DNA of 64,000 nt from Candidatus Pacearchaeota archaeon (GTDB lineage Archaea > Nanobdellota > Nanobdellia > Pacearchaeales > GW2011-AR1). Made by a program: the position numbers and the translations under genes. Positions 12,543 through 27,750 of this stretch are shown one piece after another. The notes below the pieces were generated by a model. The model made no database searches. It saw only the letters and a program-made list of their open reading frames with translations, and was not told where the DNA came from. The stretch spans positions 62,001 through 126,000 of the forward strand of contig JAGLGM010000002.1 of NCBI GenBank assembly GCA_023144035.1, given 5' to 3'. The first letter of the stretch is position 1; the number at the start of each line of letters is the position of its first letter.

Positions 12543-13076
12543 TTAAGTAAATTCAGTATTGAATTTTTCCTCCATAAATTTGATTATTTCTTCCTTTGTA
12601 ATTGTTTGTTTTTTTGGAACTTTTCCTTTTTTTATTTTTCTTAATTTAATTCTTCTTCCACTTCTCTTAAAAACAATTGTAACATCAAATCCCCTTATTC
12701 CAATATCTCTTTGATATTCTGCTCCTGGAATTTCAATGTATTCTTTTATACCAAAAGAAAAGTTATTTTCACTTATTTGTTTTTTCTTTAAAGTGTTATC
12801 AATAGTAACTAAAAGTCTTTTTAAAAGTTCTTCAAAATCTTTTCTGATAGTTACTACAGCCCCAACTTCTAAATTAGGTCTCACATTTAAAGTAGGAATT
12901 CTTTTTCCAGATCTTGTTTTTGCAGGTTTTCTTTTAGTTAATAATTCAAGAAGTTTAAATCCTTTTTCTAATTCTTCTGCAAGCCCACCTACGCTTAGAA
13001 CAACTTTCTCTATTTTGATTTCTCTCATCAAATTTTCTTTGGAATTTGGTGAATGAGAATTTTGATTTGATTTCAT
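12543..13076 (-). CDS. Ribosomal protein uL5 (true start may be the internal MREIKIEKV)
   Basis: MREIKIEKVVLSVGGLAEELEKGFKLLELLTKRKPAKTRS; ORF-track start overlaps eS4 stop as ATGA. Confidence 0.92.
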   Translation of the reverse strand: MKSNQNSHSPNSKENLMREIKIEKVVLSVGGLAEELEKGFKLLELLTKRKPAKTRSGKRIPTLNVRPNLEVGAVVTIRKDFEELLKRLLVTIDNTLKKKQISENNFSFGIKEYIEIPGAEYQRDIGIRGFDVTIVFKRSGRRIKLRKIKKGKVPKKQTITKEEIIKFMEEKFNTEFT

Positions 13077-18235: not shown

Positions 18236-18472
18236 CTACATTAATCCTAATTTCGTCGCTATGTCAATAGCTGGAAATTGTTTTTTTAATTTAATATATG
18301 CATATTTTTTATTTCCTTTAATTAATGTTCTTATCTTATGAGCTTTTACATTAAAAATTTCTTCAAATTCTTTTTTTATTTCTTCTTTTGACCTAATTTT
18401 ACTAGTTTCAAAAGTAAGAGTATTTTGTGCTTCAATCATCATAACAGCTTTTTCAGTTACTATAGGTTTCAT
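18236..18472 (-). CDS. Ribosomal protein uL23
   Basis: PIVTEKAVMMIEAQNTLTFE...FNVKAHKIRTLIKGNKKYAYIKL. Confidence 0.94.
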   Translation of the reverse strand: MKPIVTEKAVMMIEAQNTLTFETSKIRSKEEIKKEFEEIFNVKAHKIRTLIKGNKKYAYIKLKKQFPAIDIATKLGLM

Positions 18473-19257
18473 TTCATTTCCTCCAAATATTTAATCGCTT
18501 GTTCAGTATAAAGAGTTAATCTTCCTAAGCCCCCTCTTGCCAAATCAGTTACTCCAAGAGATTTAACATTAACAACTTCAAATGCATTTGTTTTTAATTT
18601 TTCATCTTTTCCTATTACAATTAATAAACCTGCGTTACTTTTGTATTTTCTTCCTCTTCTTGTTCCTTTTCCTGCACGAACAGATTTCTTTTTAATAGCA
18701 AGATTATACAATTCATTCCCTAAAAGTTTCTTAATATTAATTAATAATTCTTTAATTTTGATTTTATTAAAGTTTGAGACAATTAAAGGAAATTCTTTAT
18801 CTAATTTTTCTAAAGTTTGATATCTTTTTACAATTTTATTTTTATTAGCTGTAGCACTTAATGCAGAAGATAATGCAATTTTCAATTCTTTTTTATTTAT
18901 ACTTTTTATACCCATCATTGATAAGACCTTTGGAGGGTGTGCCCTTCTACCACCTACTGTAGATGATATTTCCGCACCAATCCAATTAAATCTATTTCCT
19001 TTTGCAGAAATAATTTTTCTTGGGATTCTTGAGATTCCTTGACCATAATGTGTTTTCCAAACATGTCTCCTATGTCTAATAATTCCACTTGCAGAATGTT
19101 GTTTTCCTGCAACAAGTGAAGGTGCATAAGGTTGTTGTCTTTTTTTAGCTTCTAAAACTTTAGCAACAATATCTTCTCGAATATCAGCAGAAAAACATTT
19201 TGGGAGATTAATGTCTTTTAATTTCTTTCCATCTATATTTAATATATTTGCTTTCAT
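18469..19257 (-). CDS. Ribosomal protein uL4
   Basis: RQQPYAPSLVAGKQHSASGIIRHRRHVWKTHYGQGISRIPRK; operon position. Confidence 0.95.
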   Translation of the reverse strand: MKANILNIDGKKLKDINLPKCFSADIREDIVAKVLEAKKRQQPYAPSLVAGKQHSASGIIRHRRHVWKTHYGQGISRIPRKIISAKGNRFNWIGAEISSTVGGRRAHPPKVLSMMGIKSINKKELKIALSSALSATANKNKIVKRYQTLEKLDKEFPLIVSNFNKIKIKELLINIKKLLGNELYNLAIKKKSVRAGKGTRRGRKYKSNAGLLIVIGKDEKLKTNAFEVVNVKSLGVTDLARGGLGRLTLYTEQAIKYLEEMK

Positions 19258-19319
19258 TTGTATTTCCTCTTCAGTTTATTTGAAAGACGAATGATTGAAA
19301 ATTTTATATTTGCTTTCAT
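19254..19319 (-). CDS. Leader mini-ORF 2, 21 aa (MKANIKFSIIRLSNKLKRKYK), TGA overlaps uL4 ATG
   Basis: Hand translation; GAGG motif upstream of downstream ATG; ATGA overlaps on both sides. Confidence 0.5.
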   Translation of the reverse strand: MKANIKFSIIRLSNKLKRKYK

Positions 19320-19381
19320 TTGTATTTCCTCTTCAGTTTATTTGAAAGACGAATGATTGAAAATTTTATATTTGCTTTCAT
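19316..19381 (-). CDS. Leader mini-ORF 1, 21 aa (identical peptide), ATG overlaps uL3 TGA
   Basis: Hand translation; ATGA overlap with uL3 stop at 19378-19380. Confidence 0.5.
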   Translation of the reverse strand: MKANIKFSIIRLSNKLKRKYK

Positions 19382-20316
19382 TTTATTAATCCTATAAATT
19401 CAAAGTTTTTCTTTGATTGTTTTTTAGTTTCTCTTAAAGGAGCAGTAATTAATAATTGTCTTTTTGCAGATCCTTGCACAGAACCAGCAACAATAATATA
19501 ATCATTATTAACATTACCATAATTCTTTATATTTTTGAATTTGTCTTCTGCCTTTCCTAAATCAATTATTTTATTATTGTATATAACTCTTGTAAACATT
19601 CCTAATTGCCCTGCTTGTGGAACTCTAAAAGTAACTCTTGCAGGATGCCAAGGACCTAAACTTCCAGGTCTTCTTTGTCCTTTTTCAGATTTTTTAGCTT
19701 TAAGAGTAATTCCAAATCTTTTTACAGGACCTGAAAGTCCCTTACCTTTTGTTAAACCTCTTAAATCAATAAGTTGGCCTTTTTCAAAAAAATCTAAAAC
19801 AGAAATTTCTTTTCCTAAATTTTCTTTAATAAAATTAATTTTTTCTTCAATTGTTCCTGTAAGACCAATTTCACTTAAATCAGGGGATTTTTTTATTCCT
19901 GTTTTTTTAGATTGCGCATAAACTATAATTCTTACATCGTCATAATCTTTAACACCTTCAAGACTTCTTTCCTTTGCTTTAGGCAATTTAACTTTTCTTT
20001 TTAATTCCTTATCTAAATTGCTTCCAATAATTTCTTTAGCAACTTTACTATCTTTATAGAATCTAACTGAAAAAATCTTCATAGTAGGACATTCAAGAAT
20101 AGTCACAGGAATAATAATTTTTTTTCCTTTTGTCATAGAATCAGGAGTATCATTTTTAACAGAAGCAGAAGCCATGCCAGCTTTATAACATATAAATCCT
20201 TTCAAATTTTTACCAGAATCAATAGCATTCCAGTTAACACTAGGCAAAAATTTACTGGCTCTTTTTCTTGGCCAATATTGCAAACTTCCTTTTCTTGGTG
20301 ATTTTCTTGTCGGCAT
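19378..20316 (-). CDS. Ribosomal protein uL3
   Basis: RKSPRKGSLQYWPRKRASKFLPSVNW..., LRGLTKGKGLSGPVKRFG, RRPGSLGPWHPARVTFRVPQAGQLG. Confidence 0.96.
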   Translation of the reverse strand: MPTRKSPRKGSLQYWPRKRASKFLPSVNWNAIDSGKNLKGFICYKAGMASASVKNDTPDSMTKGKKIIIPVTILECPTMKIFSVRFYKDSKVAKEIIGSNLDKELKRKVKLPKAKERSLEGVKDYDDVRIIVYAQSKKTGIKKSPDLSEIGLTGTIEEKINFIKENLGKEISVLDFFEKGQLIDLRGLTKGKGLSGPVKRFGITLKAKKSEKGQRRPGSLGPWHPARVTFRVPQAGQLGMFTRVIYNNKIIDLGKAEDKFKNIKNYGNVNNDYIIVAGSVQGSAKRQLLITAPLRETKKQSKKNFEFIGLIK

Positions 20317-20403
20317 TTCTTAATATAGCGGAAATTATCATTTTTACTTTACCCTGGATGTGATATCAAGAAAAAAGAGGTTTTTAAGGGTTTCGGGAGC
20401 AGT

Positions 20404-21102
20404 TTAAACTTCAAATTCATATTCTTTTATAATCTTTTGTTCGTCTATTTCAGCTTCTCTAATTATTTTACCTTTTCTTTTAGCAAGCTCTCTAATTTTA
20501 GCAAAATCTTTTTCACCTTCTGGCATAACAATGCTTTCAATAATTAGTTTATGTTTAATATTAATTTTCTTAGCATCTGGAAGATCCCAAAAAAGGTCTT
20601 CTTTAATTTTAGGATAAAATTTTTCATCTATTTCTAATTGACAGAATTTTCCATCTATTTTATCTTCATTTTTTCCAGGTTTTGGAAGTTTCTTTTTAAT
20701 TTTTAATTTAAAATCTTCCCCTTCTAAATCTAATAAAGTAAAATAAGAATTTTCTTCTAATGATTTAAGTTGGTCTCCAGTTAGTTCTTGATTAGGAATA
20801 TTAATTTGATAATAAAGTCCTCCTTTTTTAGTTTCAGAATTTCCCTCAATATTTTTTTCTTTCATAATATTTGAAAGATTTATTTTACTCATAACAATTC
20901 CTGAAACTTTACAATTTCCAAAATCTGAACATAAAGCAATTAAATCATTTGCAAATTCAAAACTTGATTTGATTTTTATTTTTTTTGTTTTCCATAAACT
21001 TAATAGAAATCTTCCACCATATTCGCCTTTTCCAAATCTAGTAAATTGTCTGTGGACATTTTCATCTATTTTTTTTTCAACAACTTTTTTTACAAAATTC
21101 AT
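20404..21102 (-). CDS. Hypothetical protein
   Basis: 232-aa ORF with coding-like composition; family not recognised. Confidence 0.6.
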   Translation of the reverse strand: MNFVKKVVEKKIDENVHRQFTRFGKGEYGGRFLLSLWKTKKIKIKSSFEFANDLIALCSDFGNCKVSGIVMSKINLSNIMKEKNIEGNSETKKGGLYYQINIPNQELTGDQLKSLEENSYFTLLDLEGEDFKLKIKKKLPKPGKNEDKIDGKFCQLEIDEKFYPKIKEDLFWDLPDAKKINIKHKLIIESIVMPEGEKDFAKIRELAKRKGKIIREAEIDEQKIIKEYEFEV

Positions 21103-21186
21103 AATTTATTTTCATCAATTTTATTTATAAACTTTATGTTCGCAAACCTTTATAAATTTAGCCCACTTATTTTTAGTAACAAGAAG

Positions 21187-22224
21187 ATGGATAAAGAATA
21201 TTTAAAAAAAATAACTACTGCGATAATCCTTATGATATTAATTGTTTTATCATTTTTTTTAGTAAGACCAATTTTATTATCTATAATAATGGGGTTGATT
21301 TTAGCATTTATTTTTTCTCCTGTTTATGATTGGCTTTATAAACATTTTAAATCAAAGAATTTTTCCGCTTTATTAATTTGTTTATTATTAATGGGATTTA
21401 TTATTCTTCCTCTTTGGTTTTTAACACCTGTAGTAATTGATCAATCCATTAAAATATATACTTCCTCTCAACAAATTGATTTTGTAACCCCCCTTAAGAA
21501 TTTTTTCCCAGAATTATTTGTATCTGAACAATTTTCAGCAGAGATAGGATCTACAATCTATAGTTTTGTAACAAAAGCAACAAATTCTTTGATGAATTCA
21601 GTATCCAAGTTAATTTTAAATTTTGCAACAATCTTTTTACAATTATTAGTTGTTTTCTTTATTTTGTTTTTTGTATTAAGAGATAAAGAAGAATTAATTA
21701 AATATATTCAAAGTATCTTGCCTTTTTCAAAAGAAGTAGAAAAAAAATTATTCAAATCTTCCAAAGATATAACTGTTTCTGTTTTATATGGACAGGTTGT
21801 TATTGGTATACTTCAAGGTATTGTTGCAGGTATAGGGTTTTTTATTTTTAATATTCCAAATGCTTTGTTATTAACTTTTTTCACAGCTTTAGCAGGAATT
21901 TTTCCAATTATAGGGACTGCTTTAGTTTGGGTTCCAGTAGTAATATATCTTTTAATAGCAGGAGAATCTTTTCCAGCAGTAGGAGTGGCAGTCTTCGGTA
22001 TTTGTTCTTCATTAGTTGAAAATATGGTTAAACCTGTATTTATATCAAAGAGGACAAAAATGAATACTTCACTTATACTTATTGGAATGGTTGGAGGGTT
22101 ATTATTATTTGGAATTTTAGGAATTATTTTAGGACCTTTAATAATTGCCTATCTTTTAATTGTCCTTGAACTTTATAGAGATAAAGGGTCTCCAACTGTT
22201 TTTGTACAAGAAAACAATAAGTAA
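21187..22224 (+). CDS. AI-2E/PerM (UPF0118)-family transporter
   Basis: Eight-TM-like architecture, FFTALAGIFPIIGTALVWVPVVIYLLI; start chosen at MDKEYLKK. Confidence 0.85.
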   Translation: MDKEYLKKITTAIILMILIVLSFFLVRPILLSIIMGLILAFIFSPVYDWLYKHFKSKNFSALLICLLLMGFIILPLWFLTPVVIDQSIKIYTSSQQIDFVTPLKNFFPELFVSEQFSAEIGSTIYSFVTKATNSLMNSVSKLILNFATIFLQLLVVFFILFFVLRDKEELIKYIQSILPFSKEVEKKLFKSSKDITVSVLYGQVVIGILQGIVAGIGFFIFNIPNALLLTFFTALAGIFPIIGTALVWVPVVIYLLIAGESFPAVGVAVFGICSSLVENMVKPVFISKRTKMNTSLILIGMVGGLLLFGILGIILGPLIIAYLLIVLELYRDKGSPTVFVQENNK

Positions 22225-22278
22225 TTTAGTTAAATATAAAAATAGATTCTTCCAACTATGTTTAATAAAAGGTAAAAA

Positions 22279-23760
22279 ATGAAATTAAAAACTAAATTTT
22301 TAAAGTGGTCTGCTGGAGCACCAACTGCTATGTTAAATAAAAAAACAGCAGGTAAAATTGGAATTCATTCTAAAGATAGAATTTCAATTAGAACATATTC
22401 TAGATATCCTAAAGAAATGGTATCTCTTGTAGATACTGTTGAAGGATTTGTTAGGCCTGGAGAGATTGCTGTTTCTTCAGAAATAAGAAAAAGAATGAAA
22501 TTAAGAAAAGGACAACCAGTTGATATAAATCTTTCCACAATACCTCAAAGCACATTTTTTATAAAAGATAAATTAGATGGAAAAAAACTTTCTTCAGATC
22601 AAATAAAGGAGATTGTTAGTGATATAGTTAACAATTCTTTATCTCAAGCAGAATTATCTTTATTTGTTTCTTCAATGTATGTTCGGGGAATGGATTTTGA
22701 AGAAACAATTGCATTAATAGAAGCAATTTTAGATTCTGGAAATTTATTAAATTTAGGAAAGAAAGTAATAGTTGATAAACATTCTGTAGGAGGTGTTCCA
22801 GGAAATAGGACAACTCCAATAGTTGTTGCAATTTGTGCAGCAGCAGGATTAACAATGCCAAAAACTTCTTCAAGATCAATTACAAGTGCTGCAGGAACCG
22901 CAGATGTTATTGAAACAATAGCAAGAATAGAATTTTCAATGGATGAATTAAAAAAAATAGTGCAAAAAACAAATGCTTGTATGGTTTGGGGCGGAGCATT
23001 AGGAATGGTTCCTGCTGATTCTAAAATTCTTGATACAGAGAAAGTTTTAAAGATAGATCCAGAAGCTCAATTACTTGCGTCAATAATGTCTAAAAAACTT
23101 GCAGTAGGAAGCCAATATATTCTTATTGATATTCCTTATGGGAAACGTGCAAAAGTTAGTAAAAAAAACGCAATTCATTTAAAGAAAAAATTTGAGAAAC
23201 TTGGAAAACATTTTAAAAGAGAAGTAAGGGTTGTTTTAACAAATGGAAATCAACCTATAGGAAATGGAATTGGACCTGCATTAGAATTAATGGATATTTT
23301 AGAAATATTAACTCCTGAAAAAAAAGGTCCAAAAGATTTAGAAGATAAATCTTTATTTTTGGCTGGAGAACTTTTAGAGATGACAGAAAAAGCAAAAAAA
23401 GGAAAAGGAATTAAAATGGCTAAGGAAATTCTTGAATCAGGAAAAGCTTTAAAGAAATTTGAAGAGATTATAAAAGCTCAAGAAGGAGATTTTAGTAAAA
23501 TAAAATTTGCAAAATTTAAAAAAGATATTTTTTCACCAAAATCAGGAAAAGTAAAAGATATTCATAATAAAAAAATAAATGCAGCAGCAAGATTTGCAGG
23601 GTGTCCAATAGATAAATCTGCAGGATTACATTTTTCTCATAAACTTGGAGACCAAGTAAAAAAAGGAGAAAAATTAATAACAATTTATGCAGAATCAAAA
23701 TCAAGATTAAATTCTGCTGTTAACTTTTTTCACAAATCTAAACCTATTAGGATACGTTAG
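22279..23760 (+). CDS. Archaeal AMP phosphorylase / thymidine phosphorylase family
   Basis: VDKHSVGGVPGNRTTPIVVAICAAAGLTMPKTSSRSITSAAGTADVIE; N-terminal extension typical of archaeal AMPpase. Confidence 0.92.
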   Translation: MKLKTKFLKWSAGAPTAMLNKKTAGKIGIHSKDRISIRTYSRYPKEMVSLVDTVEGFVRPGEIAVSSEIRKRMKLRKGQPVDINLSTIPQSTFFIKDKLDGKKLSSDQIKEIVSDIVNNSLSQAELSLFVSSMYVRGMDFEETIALIEAILDSGNLLNLGKKVIVDKHSVGGVPGNRTTPIVVAICAAAGLTMPKTSSRSITSAAGTADVIETIARIEFSMDELKKIVQKTNACMVWGGALGMVPADSKILDTEKVLKIDPEAQLLASIMSKKLAVGSQYILIDIPYGKRAKVSKKNAIHLKKKFEKLGKHFKREVRVVLTNGNQPIGNGIGPALELMDILEILTPEKKGPKDLEDKSLFLAGELLEMTEKAKKGKGIKMAKEILESGKALKKFEEIIKAQEGDFSKIKFAKFKKDIFSPKSGKVKDIHNKKINAAARFAGCPIDKSAGLHFSHKLGDQVKKGEKLITIYAESKSRLNSAVNFFHKSKPIRIR

Positions 23761-23799
23761 TATAACTATATTTTTAAACTATATTTTTCTACTGAAATT

Positions 23800-24069
23800 A
23801 TGGGAAATTTAGATCATAAAAGAAAGATTATAGATTATTTTAAGAGAAATTTAACAAAAGGATATACTCCTGATTCATTAAAATGGGCATTAATAGACCA
23901 AGGATATTCAAGAGCAATAGTTGAAATGGCTTTAGATCAAGTCAATAAAGAACTTGCTGAAAAAGCACCAGTTCTTAAAGATAAACCAACTATAAAATAT
24001 GAGATAATCGATGAATATGATAAACCTATAATAATTAAGAAATCTTGGTGGAAGCGAGTATTTGGTTAA
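23800..24069 (+). CDS. Hypothetical protein
   Basis: 89-aa ORF; no family recognised. Confidence 0.5.
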   Translation: MGNLDHKRKIIDYFKRNLTKGYTPDSLKWALIDQGYSRAIVEMALDQVNKELAEKAPVLKDKPTIKYEIIDEYDKPIIIKKSWWKRVFG

Positions 24070-24172
24070 GTGAACTCTTTTTATTTATAAATAACAGCTT
24101 AGTCAGTGTGAGTAGAGTTTTGGGGTTTATAGGAATAACTTTTTAAACAAAAAACATCTATCTTTTTTATAT

Positions 24173-24253
24173 GCCTCCATCGCATAATGGTATTGCACCG
24201 GACTTGAGATCCGGGGCCTTCGGGCCATCCCCGTTCGATTCGGGGTGGGGGCG
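24173..24253 (+). tRNA. tRNA-Ser (anticodon UGA)
   Basis: Acceptor GCCTCCA/TGGGGGC, anticodon stem CCGGA-CTTGAGA-TCCGG, variable arm GGCC-TTCG-GGCC, T-arm CCCCG-TTCGATT-CGGGG. Confidence 0.9.
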
Positions 24254-24358
24254 TTTAGATTTATTTATAATACTTTAAAGTATATATTAGAAAGTATATA
24301 TTGTGAAATATATTTAGCACTAACTAAGTTTTAAGACTAGCCTTCTACAAAATTAAAT

Positions 24359-24655
24359 TTAACCAAATAGAGAAGACAAGCCTTCTGCTGCAGCTTCTTT
24401 CTTTTCTTCTTTTGGCGCTTCAGGTTTCTTTTCTTCAGCAGGTGCTTCAGAGACTCCACTTGTAGGAGCAGCAGAAACTAAACTAGCATTTTCTAGTTCT
24501 TTTGCTATATCAACGCCCTTCAAACTAGCGATTAAAGATTTGATTTTTGATTCATCAACTTCTTCGCCAACAGCTACAACAACTTTTTTCACATTTTCTT
24601 CATTAACTTCTTTTCCAAGTTTGTGCAACAAAAGTGCCGCATATATATATTCCAT
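24359..24655 (-). CDS. Ribosomal protein P1/L12
   Basis: MEYIYAALLLHKLGKEVNEENVKKVV...EEKKEAAAEGLSSLFG. Confidence 0.93.
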   Translation of the reverse strand: MEYIYAALLLHKLGKEVNEENVKKVVVAVGEEVDESKIKSLIASLKGVDIAKELENASLVSAAPTSGVSEAPAEEKKPEAPKEEKKEAAAEGLSSLFG

Positions 24656-25579
24656 TTATTTTTCCTCTCCTTCTTGTTTATTTTCTTTAGGAGTTTGAGT
24701 TTCTTCTATTTTTTCTTCTTTAATTTCATTTGTATCTTTTTCTTCTTCAACTGCTTCATCTTCTTTAGGGCTTTGTAAATTATTTTCTACTTCTGCAGGT
24801 TTTAAATTTTCTAATATTTTTTCATGCACACCTGCTTTTCCAATTAAAAATTTAATTGTTTCTTCACTTGAATATCCAATCTCAACTGCAAAAGGAAGTG
24901 ATTTTCCATAAGCTGTTTTTAATTCTTCTAATGTTCCTTCCTTGTCAATATTTAATTCTGCATAGAATTTTCCTTCTTCATTATCAAAAGCACATAAAGG
25001 AATAAACCCAACTGAAAATGGTTTAATATCTAGTTTACCCATAAGTTCTACTGCACCTGAAGAGATTTTTTCTCCTTCTTTTGCAATCACTTTTGGTTCT
25101 TTAATTGTAATTTTTCCTTTTTCTATTTGAATTTTAATTCCCAATGCTCCAAGTTCACTTATTGCTGGACCTGGGATTAAATCAGTTGGACCTGCTGGAA
25201 CTTCAATATCTTCAGGAGCTTCTTGACCTACTTTTCCTTTTGAAGGGGTTTTATTATTTAATAATTCGCCAGCTAATTCAAAAGAATCTAAATCAGAAAA
25301 TAAAATAACAACACTATCTTCAACTTTTTCTTTAAGATCTTTAATAGCTTCTTTACTAGATGAATCTAATGCTCTAAGAATTAAATTTTTTTTAGGGAAT
25401 GTAACTATTGCTTTCCCCCTAAGTTTTTTACTAATTTCTTGAAATTGAGATGCAGGAAGATTTTTTATAGAAGCCATTAAAATTGTCTTTTTAGTTTTTA
25501 TAAAATTCTTTAAATCTTCTACAGTTTTTACATTTCTTTTGTTTGGTTCTCGTACAGGAATATTGTTTTTAGATTTCAT
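24656..25579 (-). CDS. Ribosomal protein uL10 (P0)
   Basis: VPAGPTDLIPGPAISELGALGIKIQIEKGKITIKEP; operon. Confidence 0.93.
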   Translation of the reverse strand: MKSKNNIPVREPNKRNVKTVEDLKNFIKTKKTILMASIKNLPASQFQEISKKLRGKAIVTFPKKNLILRALDSSSKEAIKDLKEKVEDSVVILFSDLDSFELAGELLNNKTPSKGKVGQEAPEDIEVPAGPTDLIPGPAISELGALGIKIQIEKGKITIKEPKVIAKEGEKISSGAVELMGKLDIKPFSVGFIPLCAFDNEEGKFYAELNIDKEGTLEELKTAYGKSLPFAVEIGYSSEETIKFLIGKAGVHEKILENLKPAEVENNLQSPKEDEAVEEEKDTNEIKEEKIEETQTPKENKQEGEEK

Positions 25580-26199
25580 TTTATTTTTAATTTCTGAGGT
25601 TTAGTCATTGTAAATTTTAATTCAATATTTTTTATGTTTTCTTTATCTCTTGGAAGTTCTTTCACAATTGAATCATAAATTGTTTGAATATTTTCAAGAA
25701 GGTCTTCATTTTTCATACTGTATTTTCCTACAGGAACTTTAATGCTAGCTTCTTTTACTTTTATTTTTAAAATATTATTAACTTTATTTTTTAAATCATT
25801 AATTATTTTTTCATTAGCATCCATTATAATTCCTAATTGAGGAGAAGGCATTTTTCCAGCAGGACCTAAAACCCTTCCAAAAGTAGTTGCAACTTTTGGC
25901 ATCAAACTTGATTGTGCAATAAAGAAGTCATACTTACCAACTAAATCTTTTAATTTCTTTTTATCAGTATATTGTTTAAATTCTTCAAAAGTAATAGTAT
26001 CTACATCTTTATTTTTTACTTCTAAAAAACCTGCAATTTTCTTGTCTTTTATTTTATGAGGAAGTGTTACAATGAAATTTAATTGGCTTTTTTTAACATC
26101 AAATTTTTGGAGATTTACAATTAAATCTAAAGTTTGATCAAACTTTCTTTGTTTTTCTTTTCTTAATTCTTCTAAAGCTTTCTTTAGTTGTTCTTTCAT
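25576..26199 (-). CDS. Ribosomal protein uL1
   Basis: FGRVLGPAGKMPSPQLGIIM, IKVPVGKYSMKNEDLLENIQTI. Confidence 0.94.
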   Translation of the reverse strand: MKEQLKKALEELRKEKQRKFDQTLDLIVNLQKFDVKKSQLNFIVTLPHKIKDKKIAGFLEVKNKDVDTITFEEFKQYTDKKKLKDLVGKYDFFIAQSSLMPKVATTFGRVLGPAGKMPSPQLGIIMDANEKIINDLKNKVNNILKIKVKEASIKVPVGKYSMKNEDLLENIQTIYDSIVKELPRDKENIKNIELKFTMTKPQKLKIK

Positions 26200-26267
26200 T
26201 TGGATTTCCTCACCAATTTATTGGAAAGACGAATGACTGAAAATCTCTGATTTTCTCCAAGTTCCAT
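26196..26267 (-). CDS. Leader mini-ORF upstream of uL1, 23 aa (MELGENQRFSVIRLSNKLVRKSK)
   Basis: Hand translation; TGA overlaps uL1 ATG (ATGA); peptide homologous to uL4 leader peptides. Confidence 0.5.
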   Translation of the reverse strand: MELGENQRFSVIRLSNKLVRKSK

Positions 26268-26412
26268 CTTACTATTTACCTCCCAAATTATGCGCCACAA
26301 ACATAGAATATATTTTGCAACGATATGGTTCAATCGGTAAATTTGAGAGATAATTTGAGTTTATAAACTTTATTATATAAATCCTTAAAAACCAAAAGCA
26401 TATTTATTAGGT

Positions 26413-26763
26413 ATGGAACTTGTAGCTTTATTATCAACTGGAAAAGGAACATGGGGGCAAGTATCTGGATTAATGACTCATGGAGAATGGGATAATGTAA
26501 TTCTTATTGGAAGTGATTTTGCAAAGGATTTTAAACATGATAAAAAATTTGAGTTTATTAAAGTAGATTTAGATAAAAAATTAAAAGACCTTAAAGAAGA
26601 TATTTTACAAAAGTTAAAAGGAAAAATTAATGGAACAGAAGCAGCATTATCAATTGCTTCTGGAGACGGTAAAGAACACATGGCTTTAATATCTGCATTA
26701 ATTAATTTACCAGTAGGAATTCGTTTCGCAGCTTTGACAAAAGATGGAGTTATTGATTTGTAA
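26413..26763 (+). CDS. Hypothetical alpha/beta protein
   Basis: 116-aa ORF, MELVALLSTGKGTWGQVSGLM...ASGDGKEHMALISALINLPVGIRF; family not identified. Confidence 0.6.
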   Translation: MELVALLSTGKGTWGQVSGLMTHGEWDNVILIGSDFAKDFKHDKKFEFIKVDLDKKLKDLKEDILQKLKGKINGTEAALSIASGDGKEHMALISALINLPVGIRFAALTKDGVIDL

Positions 26764-27750
26764 TTAAATCTCTCTATTCTTAATTTTCATATCAGATTTA
26801 TTCTTTCCTAAAACATAAGCCCTACTTCTTTCATGTTTATCTAATAACTTTAATCCAGTTTCTTTTACAAGTTTATTAACAAAAACCATCATTTCTTTAT
26901 CTGTAGGCATTCTTTCATATCCTAATCTTTGCCTTGCAAAACCTACACTCATATATCCTTTAACATGCACAAAAGTTGGTTTTGCTTTATTAATCAATTT
27001 TACATATTCCTTAATATGTTTATCTTCCATATTTAAATCCTTAACCAAATTCATTCTAATAACTGTCCTAGAATTTAAACCAGATAAAATTTCTAATGTT
27101 TCATTAAATTTTTCCCAAGCATTTTTTATAGAACTTTTATGAAATTTAAGATAAGATTTTTCATCAGTAGAATTAAGAGATACTGTTAATTGAGTTGGAA
27201 GTTGTTTTTTATTTGCAAGTTCTTTTATTTTTTCAGGATAAAGACCGTTAGTAACTAAAAAACTAGTTTTACCCCTTCTACGGATTTCAGCGATAAGATC
27301 TCCAATTTTAGGGTAAATAGTTGGTTCTCCTGAAAGAGATATTGAGAAATGCATAGGTTCTTGGGCTTCTTCCCATTTTTTCATGTTGGCTTTACTAACT
27401 GTTTTATGTTTAGTTTCTGGAAGAATTTTAAATCCTTCTAATAATTTTTTTTGCGCTTTAATACATCCATCAACAATTTCTTTTGGAGAATTAAGTTTAC
27501 CTTTCATTTTATCTCCAATTGTTAATTCAGTTGCTCTCCAACAATGCACACATTTATTTGGACACCACATTACTGCAGGAGTCATTTGACAACATAAATG
27601 AGATTTTACACCATAAAATTGTTGTTTAAAACAAAATCCTTCATCTCGAATAGATTTCTTAGTCCATCTACAAATTTGAATTGCAGAATGATTTCCAATT
27701 ATTTTGTAGTGTTGTTTTTCCAAAGTTTTTTTTACTTTTTCTGGTATCAT
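26764..27750 (-). CDS. tRNA 4-demethylwyosine synthase TYW1/Taw1-like (radical SAM)
   Basis: MWCPNKCVHCWR radical SAM motif, FSISLSGEPTIYPKIGDLI, TNGLYPE. Confidence 0.92.
   Translation of the reverse strand: MIPEKVKKTLEKQHYKIIGNHSAIQICRWTKKSIRDEGFCFKQQFYGVKSHLCCQMTPAVMWCPNKCVHCWRATELTIGDKMKGKLNSPKEIVDGCIKAQKKLLEGFKILPETKHKTVSKANMKKWEEAQEPMHFSISLSGEPTIYPKIGDLIAEIRRRGKTSFLVTNGLYPEKIKELANKKQLPTQLTVSLNSTDEKSYLKFHKSSIKNAWEKFNETLEILSGLNSRTVIRMNLVKDLNMEDKHIKEYVKLINKAKPTFVHVKGYMSVGFARQRLGYERMPTDKEMMVFVNKLVKETGLKLLDKHERSRAYVLGKNKSDMKIKNREI

Follow-up and report, generated by a model that had tools for sequence, protein, structure and literature searches.

In Haloferax, coupling of translation by termination and reinitiation at four-nucleotide overlaps is established (PMC6728339, PMC10666635), and an alternative mode of coupling is known in which a start site hidden in RNA structure is opened by translation of the upstream gene (PMC6728339). 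Engineered leaderless bicistronic designs require both translation of a fore-cistron and a Shine-Dalgarno sequence (SD) internal to it (PMC10367133). Two further kinds of element have to be considered for the locus described here, namely the structured leaders of archaeal ribosomal protein genes such as L4-Archaeoglobi (PMC7247131) and the Rickettsia palindromic elements (RPEs), which are 100-150 bp long and have been noted within open reading frames (PMC3767692). The locus is the uL3/uL4 junction in a stretch of 64,000 nucleotides from a Candidatus Pacearchaeota archaeon, the whole of which is called the window below. We think it probable that this junction carries, in tandem, a mobile leader cassette of 47-77 nt which would enforce translational coupling between a short leader ORF and the gene behind it.

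On the minus strand the junction reads ...ATTAATAAA ATGAAAGCAAATATAAAATTTTCAATCATTCGTCTTTCAAATAAACTGAAGAGGAAATACAA ATGAAAGC..., with a 62-nt unit present twice, letter for letter, 5' of uL4. Each unit forms a 21-codon ORF, and the two entries in the ORF list are identical to the letter (MKANIKFSIIRLSNKLKRKYK; Table 1). The ATG of the first leader ORF shares bases with the stop codon TGA of uL3, its own TGA does so with the ATG of the second leader ORF, and the TGA of the latter overlaps the ATG of uL4, which gives the chain uL3-ATGA-uORF-ATGA-uORF-ATGA-uL4. Both leader junctions therefore show the four-nucleotide stop/start overlap of pairs coupled by termination-reinitiation. A GAGG lies 8 nt 5' of each ATG and, as in bicistronic designs, the SD for the second cistron sits within the first short cistron. 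The duplication, the chain of overlaps and the preserved GAGG had been noted in a sequence-only reading of the same DNA and are confirmed by the ORF coordinates, by the letters of the minus strand and by a tandem repeat search, in which TRF reports a repeat of period 62 with 2.4 copies (score 283), by far the top-scoring tandem repeat of the window. The 0.4 copy is the first 15 nt of uL4 itself (ATGAAAGCAAATATA); because uL4 of relatives already starts in a similar way (ATGAAAGCAAA-ATATT-like), this partial third unit is the gene's own start.

Table 1. Positions in the window of the leader copies and of the genes that they precede
Feature	Position	Strand	Remarks
uL3 gene	19378..20316	-	TGA overlaps ATG of leader ORF 1; from ORF list; homologous uL3 in 30 relatives
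Leader ORF copy 1 (MKANIKFSIIRLSNKLKRKYK, stop)	19316..19381	-	R1 CM match, 67.7 bits
Leader ORF copy 2, identical to copy 1	19254..19319	-	TGA overlaps uL4 ATG; R2 CM match, 65.3 bits, E 2e-11
Copy 1 hairpin region (UCAUUCG...CAAAUGA)	19316..19356	-	SD GAGG 19328-19331; structure from family covariation
Copy 2 hairpin region	19254..19294	-	SD GAGG 19266-19269 and uL4 start codon; structure from family covariation
uL4 gene	18469..19257	-	Opens with the same 15 nt as each leader
Third copy, leader ORF (MELGENQRFSVIRLSNKLVRKSK, stop)	26196..26267	-	Splits ancestral uL1 start between codons 3 and 4; leader stop TGA overlaps uL1 ATG
uL1 gene	25576..26199	-	First in uL1-uL10-L12 operon
Fourth, diverged (decayed) copy at uL5	13026..13076	-	R2 match, 36.6 bits, E 1.4e-5; in-frame N-terminal extension (MKSNQNSHSPNSKENL)
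uL5 ORF including extension	12543..13076	-	Conserved core from 13028 (MREIKIEK)

According to the sequence-only reading, the leaders arose when 62 bp at the uL4 start were duplicated locally. This origin was rejected, since the 47-nt middle of the unit matches neither uL3 nor uL4. The leader is absent from both same-genus genomes (n=2) and from most of the family, where the uL3 stop and the uL4 start share a single ATGA, and the 124 bp are thus an insertion in the window's lineage. Lack of a leader at this junction in close relatives, together with a lack of ribosome occupancy, had been named beforehand as counting against the proposal; the first half of this holds, the leader being indeed lacking in both same-genus genomes, but as relatives have the element at different junctions, its absence at uL3/uL4 does not refute a function. 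To judge from the sequence, the uL4 leaders are a copy of a dispersed element that was inserted and then tandemly doubled, and not the outcome of a one-off local duplication. Unrelated inserts of about 90-280 nt occupy the uL3/uL4 junction in other relatives (L007, L013, L015, L024 and L030), and in L024 and others small ORFs open at the ATGA overlap with uL3 and extend into uL4; the junction seems prone to small-gene insertion.

Could the second copy be spurious? The true genome might have a single leader 5' of uL4, and the identity of the two units as well as the draft state of the genome (0.78 Mb in 15 contigs, a size that suits the DPANN affiliation assumed in the sequence-only reading) would fit such an assembly artefact. 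Short-read assembly, however, usually collapses short tandems instead of creating them, and tandem leaders recur in independent genomes, with two identical 56-nt units 5' of uL14 in G162, three diverged units 5' of eL41 in G180 and two diverged units each in G086, G016 and G032. This recurrence makes the tandem duplication at uL4 credible as biology, and we regard an artefact as very improbable.

When the unit was used to search its own genome, the 52-nt core was found again at 26193-26244 of the window, just 5' of uL1, with 88% identity. The ancestral uL1 start, ATGGAACTT followed by AAAGAACAA, is unbroken in G001 and G002 and split by the insertion in the window, where the host gene's own start and SD now head the leader ORF and the leader TGA overlaps a new uL1 ATG. 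At uL5 the leader ATG of a decayed copy lies 48 nt from the conserved uL5 ATG, a length divisible by three, and the copy is therefore read as an N-terminal extension; the extension is missing from both sister species, and the hairpin of the copy still folds. The expectation that the insert would act as a coupled mini-ORF instead of an N-terminal extension thus applies at uL4 but not at uL5, where the element did become such an extension. The sister species have empty sites at uL4, uL1 and uL5 alike.

A separate conserved structured leader is found 5' of uL1 in the relatives examined and at 26279-26338 of the window (minus strand; ACCGATTGAACCATATCG...GCGCATAATTTGGGAGG here). It shows compensatory changes at 15 of 19 predicted pairs among 19 sequences, has no match in Rfam and is likely to be an undescribed archaeal uL1 ribosomal protein leader that includes the SD. 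That the repeat itself is a copy of the uL1 autoregulatory site was rejected, because this conserved leader is a separate upstream structure and because the element precedes many other genes. In the uL1 matches L045 (G016) and L063 (G014) one in-frame TGA and TAA were reported within the aligned stretch.

A nucleotide search of the 191 genomes of the archaeal family revealed clear copies in several genera. Profile R1, built from sequence only, matched 116 of these 191 genomes when the cut-off was loose. Searching the order's 211 genomes with the structure profile R2 (E<=0.001) identified 67 carriers, with as many as 20 copies in one genome; every carrier belongs to the one family and none to the 20 genomes of the order's other families. 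Extending the search to 384 genomes sampled across the class brought in a single weak match outside, and an exact-pattern scan of genome contigs gave only scattered bacterial matches, which we take as chance. A viral origin was rejected, as the exact 24-nt pattern had no match among viral contigs.

The consensus of the family is ATGAAAGCAAATCAAAGATTTTCATTCATTCG-stem-loop with AGGA/GGAG-stem-AAATGAAAG, and the leaders are 16-26 codons long. The distance between leader ATG and gene ATG takes at least nine values in the range of 47-77 nt (e.g. 47, 50, 53, 56, 62, 65, 68, 71 and 77 nt), and in 71 of the 91 matches with a leader ATG it equals 2 mod 3 (p=3e-18, uncorrected for relatedness). Exact ATGA closure on the gene is seen in 69 of the 91; the rule is broken in 20, and the Rpp14 copy in G000 is decayed. 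The claim that the frame of the insert yields coupled mini-ORFs therefore extends from uL4 to the element family, and such frame closure suggests that the short cistron is translated. An SD-like core is present in 52 of 67 leaders, as compared to 13 expected by shuffling (maximum 23); a search for the 3' end of 16S rRNA as a check of the anti-SD found only a truncated gene, which matches the archaeal 16S model of Rfam. The 69 exact copies differ in their upstream context: a TATA-like box stands 25-34 nt 5' of the leader ATG in 20, a spacing that would suit leaderless mRNA, 16 overlap an upstream stop by ATGA, another 16 lie within 15 nt of an upstream stop, 7 stand in tandem and 10 have other contexts. 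In L117, L226, L223 and L232 the terminal ATGAAAG runs on as ATGAAAGGAGGT..., which adds a micro-ORF or an SD before the true gene start, and L110 (G137:C26:3892-3960), a well-conserved copy of 63.8 bits, adjoins a tRNA-like sequence and no protein gene.

Conservation of the element is at the level of nucleotides and not of the peptide. Third codon positions are no more variable than the others (entropy of 0.50, 0.50 and 0.33 at positions 1, 2 and 3), and in some copies the motif falls in a different frame (KIFIHS as opposed to RFSFIR) although the ORF still ends at ATGA. It is therefore unlikely that the peptide is what counts, and a conserved leader peptide or peptide-sensing attenuator of the tnaC or erm type was ruled out on the same grounds. 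A CRISPR-like array, considered because the tandem units have similar ends, was dismissed as well, as the 'spacer' part is conserved as much as the rest.

Covariation across the family shows that the 3' half of the element is a hairpin (UCAUU...AAUGA) which encloses the SD and the start codon. UCAUU/AAUGA and the adjoining stem form 92.7% standard pairs over 38 leaders, compared with 31-57% in slid-pairing controls, and double-changed cells in the stem number 41, against 15.4 in shuffles (none of 500 as high). If arms are exchanged between leaders, the variable stem retains 42% Watson-Crick pairing instead of 69% (z=11.9). Compensatory stems include CUC/GAG, CAC/GUG, CAUA/UAUG and GAAUU/AAUUC, and one subtype has a 10-bp stem, UCAUUCAAAA/UUUUGAAUGA. 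Predicted folds of 54 hairpins have a mean z of -1.37, with the AUG fully paired in 37 of them. Because the z-scores from single-sequence folding of the window's own copies are weak and not significant, it is the family covariation that carries the structural claim; the best predicted fold of the uL4 and uL1 copies of the window pairs the SD and not the AUG.

The genes behind the leaders are mostly those of ribosomal proteins (uS3, uS4-like, uS7, uS13, uS14, eS8, uL14, uL18, uL30 and eL33 and, by sequence similarity, uL4, uL1, uL23, uL29 and eL41). The others encode an RNA polymerase beta domain protein (rpoB), apgM, Rpp14-like protein, a TPP enzyme, NTP transferases, a class-V aminotransferase and cold-shock, PIN, DHH and M48 proteins. 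This strong bias towards translation and core growth genes would also be expected of a protein-binding or signal-responsive leader, in which the hairpin is the putative site of a ribosomal protein or global regulator that switches many growth genes together; the hairpin is conserved with covariation, and ribosomal protein leaders are known before archaeal L4 operons (PMC7247131). Yet the stem letters vary freely as long as pairing is kept, which would limit specific recognition to UCAUUCG and the 5' half, and targets as diverse as apgM, NTP transferases, PIN and a peptidase are unlike ribosomal protein autoregulation. Moreover, the element has no match in Rfam, where a cmscan search with 19000-27000, at E values up to 10, returned nothing beyond a tRNA and a snoRNA match due to chance. 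We therefore consider a leader of this kind rather improbable.

The copies appear to have spread within genomes. The most similar other leader lies within the same genome for 19 of 69 leaders, compared with 3.0 expected (maximum 13 in 2000 shuffles), and these nearest pairs are mostly at different genes, a few being tandem neighbours; the nearest leader is at the same gene in another genome in only 9 of 69. Close pairs are uS14/uL14 in G094 (98%) and apgM/NTP transferase in G093 (96%) and, across genomes, apgM in G000 and a nucleotidyltransferase gene in G181 (93%). A few copies are embedded in frame within proteins (L233:629-682 in G000:C9, L242:607-666, L176:735-779 and L216:752-795), by inspection a HisRS-like protein in the window's genome, a secreted-type protein and an Elp3-like protein. 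In two of these the C-G pair beneath the start codon is swapped to A-U with both sides changed, so that pairing is held where a start codon is absent.

Would a selfish repeat explain these observations? In this main rival explanation a palindromic repeat akin to RPEs moves by its own or borrowed machinery, copies at start sites that obey the 2 mod 3 rule survive since other insertions into essential operons are lethal, and leader ORF and SD are camouflage. The spreading within genomes, the in-frame copies inside proteins, the pairing held in two of them and the patchy occurrence, with absence from the sister species, all favour it. However, such a repeat would be expected to pile up between genes, yet at least 86 of 107 matches lie exactly at a gene start, and neither covarying stems with an SD in the loop nor TATA boxes at leaderless distance are needed for mere survival. 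Y1 transposase genes (PF01797), which would be expected as mobiliser if the repeat were a non-autonomous element of the IS200/IS605 type, were found in 3 of 8 carrier genomes checked, compared with 1 of 8 genomes without copies, and they show no clear correlation with copy number. On balance, a purely selfish repeat seems unlikely to us, and selfish or accidental spread and retention by function can both be true.

We therefore return to translational coupling as the preferred reading, and infer from the anatomy of the element that the leaders are translated, are coupled to the genes behind them and matter to the cell. A ribosome would enter the leader ORF on a leaderless mRNA whose 5' end lies at the AUG of the leader (with a TATA box at -27/-29) or, alternatively, by ATGA coupling from an upstream gene, as from uL3 at the junction in the window. 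The 3' half of the leader would fold such that UCAU(U) pairs with (A)AUGA of the real gene and hides its start, with the SD in the hairpin loop or upper stem. The leader ribosome would then melt the hairpin, halt at the UGA which overlaps the AUG of the gene and re-initiate with the aid of the internal SD, making translation of the gene dependent on that of the leader. Two successive steps of this kind at uL4 would link uL4, and probably the genes behind it too, to the translation of uL3 and may perhaps lower or smooth the yield of uL4. The tandem may be a translational attenuator or a dosage device, the two roles suggested in the sequence-only reading. Against this reading stands that two-thirds of the family genomes do without the element and that the copies inside proteins show that it can persist without leader function. 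The breakers of the frame rule, the decayed copies and, in the window's uL4 and uL1 folds, the predicted pairing of SD instead of AUG and the weak z-scores also speak against it.

If the coupling is real, the element is a natural genome-wide counterpart of synthetic bicistronic design, and a repeat has, in spreading through core genes of small archaeal genomes, rewired how their translation starts. With dozens of natural replicates and empty sister sites it offers a view of how a start codon moves and of the way in which an SD and a leader are acquired by leaderless genes, and it bears on how ribosomal protein stoichiometry is set within long operons. For annotation it is also a warning: leaders escape notice, and the start codons of genes such as uL5 and uL1 are misjudged.

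With the ATGA coupling of Haloferax volcanii, likewise an archaeon, and of E. coli (PMC6728339, PMC10666635) the element shares the four-nucleotide overlaps and the SD in the upstream ORF. There, however, both partners are genuine genes, whereas here the upstream partner is a short leader without peptide conservation before many unrelated genes. The synthetic bicistronic designs, including the leaderless BCD of Corynebacterium glutamicum (PMC10367133), are alike in having a short fore-cistron that contains the SD of the second and a stop beside or overlapping its start; they are engineered, whereas the element is natural and dispersed and has a conserved hairpin predicted to hide the start. 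Like RPEs (PMC3767692) it is a short dispersed palindrome with some copies in frame inside proteins, but these are only a handful, and it is set apart by its length of about 50-70 nt and by its placement, as most copies form a separate ORF with an SD at the start of a gene. Finally, it resembles ribosomal protein leaders such as L4-Archaeoglobi (PMC7247131) as a structured RNA 5' of archaeal ribosomal protein genes; unlike a leader that stands before the gene or operon of its own binder, the same element precedes many unrelated genes, occurs in many copies per genome and is probably translated. A dispersed, structured and translated leader repeat before many core genes was not found described in the open-access literature. 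We tentatively suggest, as a real possibility somewhat short of an even chance, a novel class in which a mobile element is itself a translational control device: it would insert just behind start codons, hijack the host gene's initiation site for its leader ORF and supply a new SD, hairpin and start, so that a lineage rewires ribosomal and core genes into leader-coupled chains in which tandem copies may set dosage. The parts of the proposed mechanism are known from the systems above; such an element as a whole is apparently new, and it may well merit a separate class.
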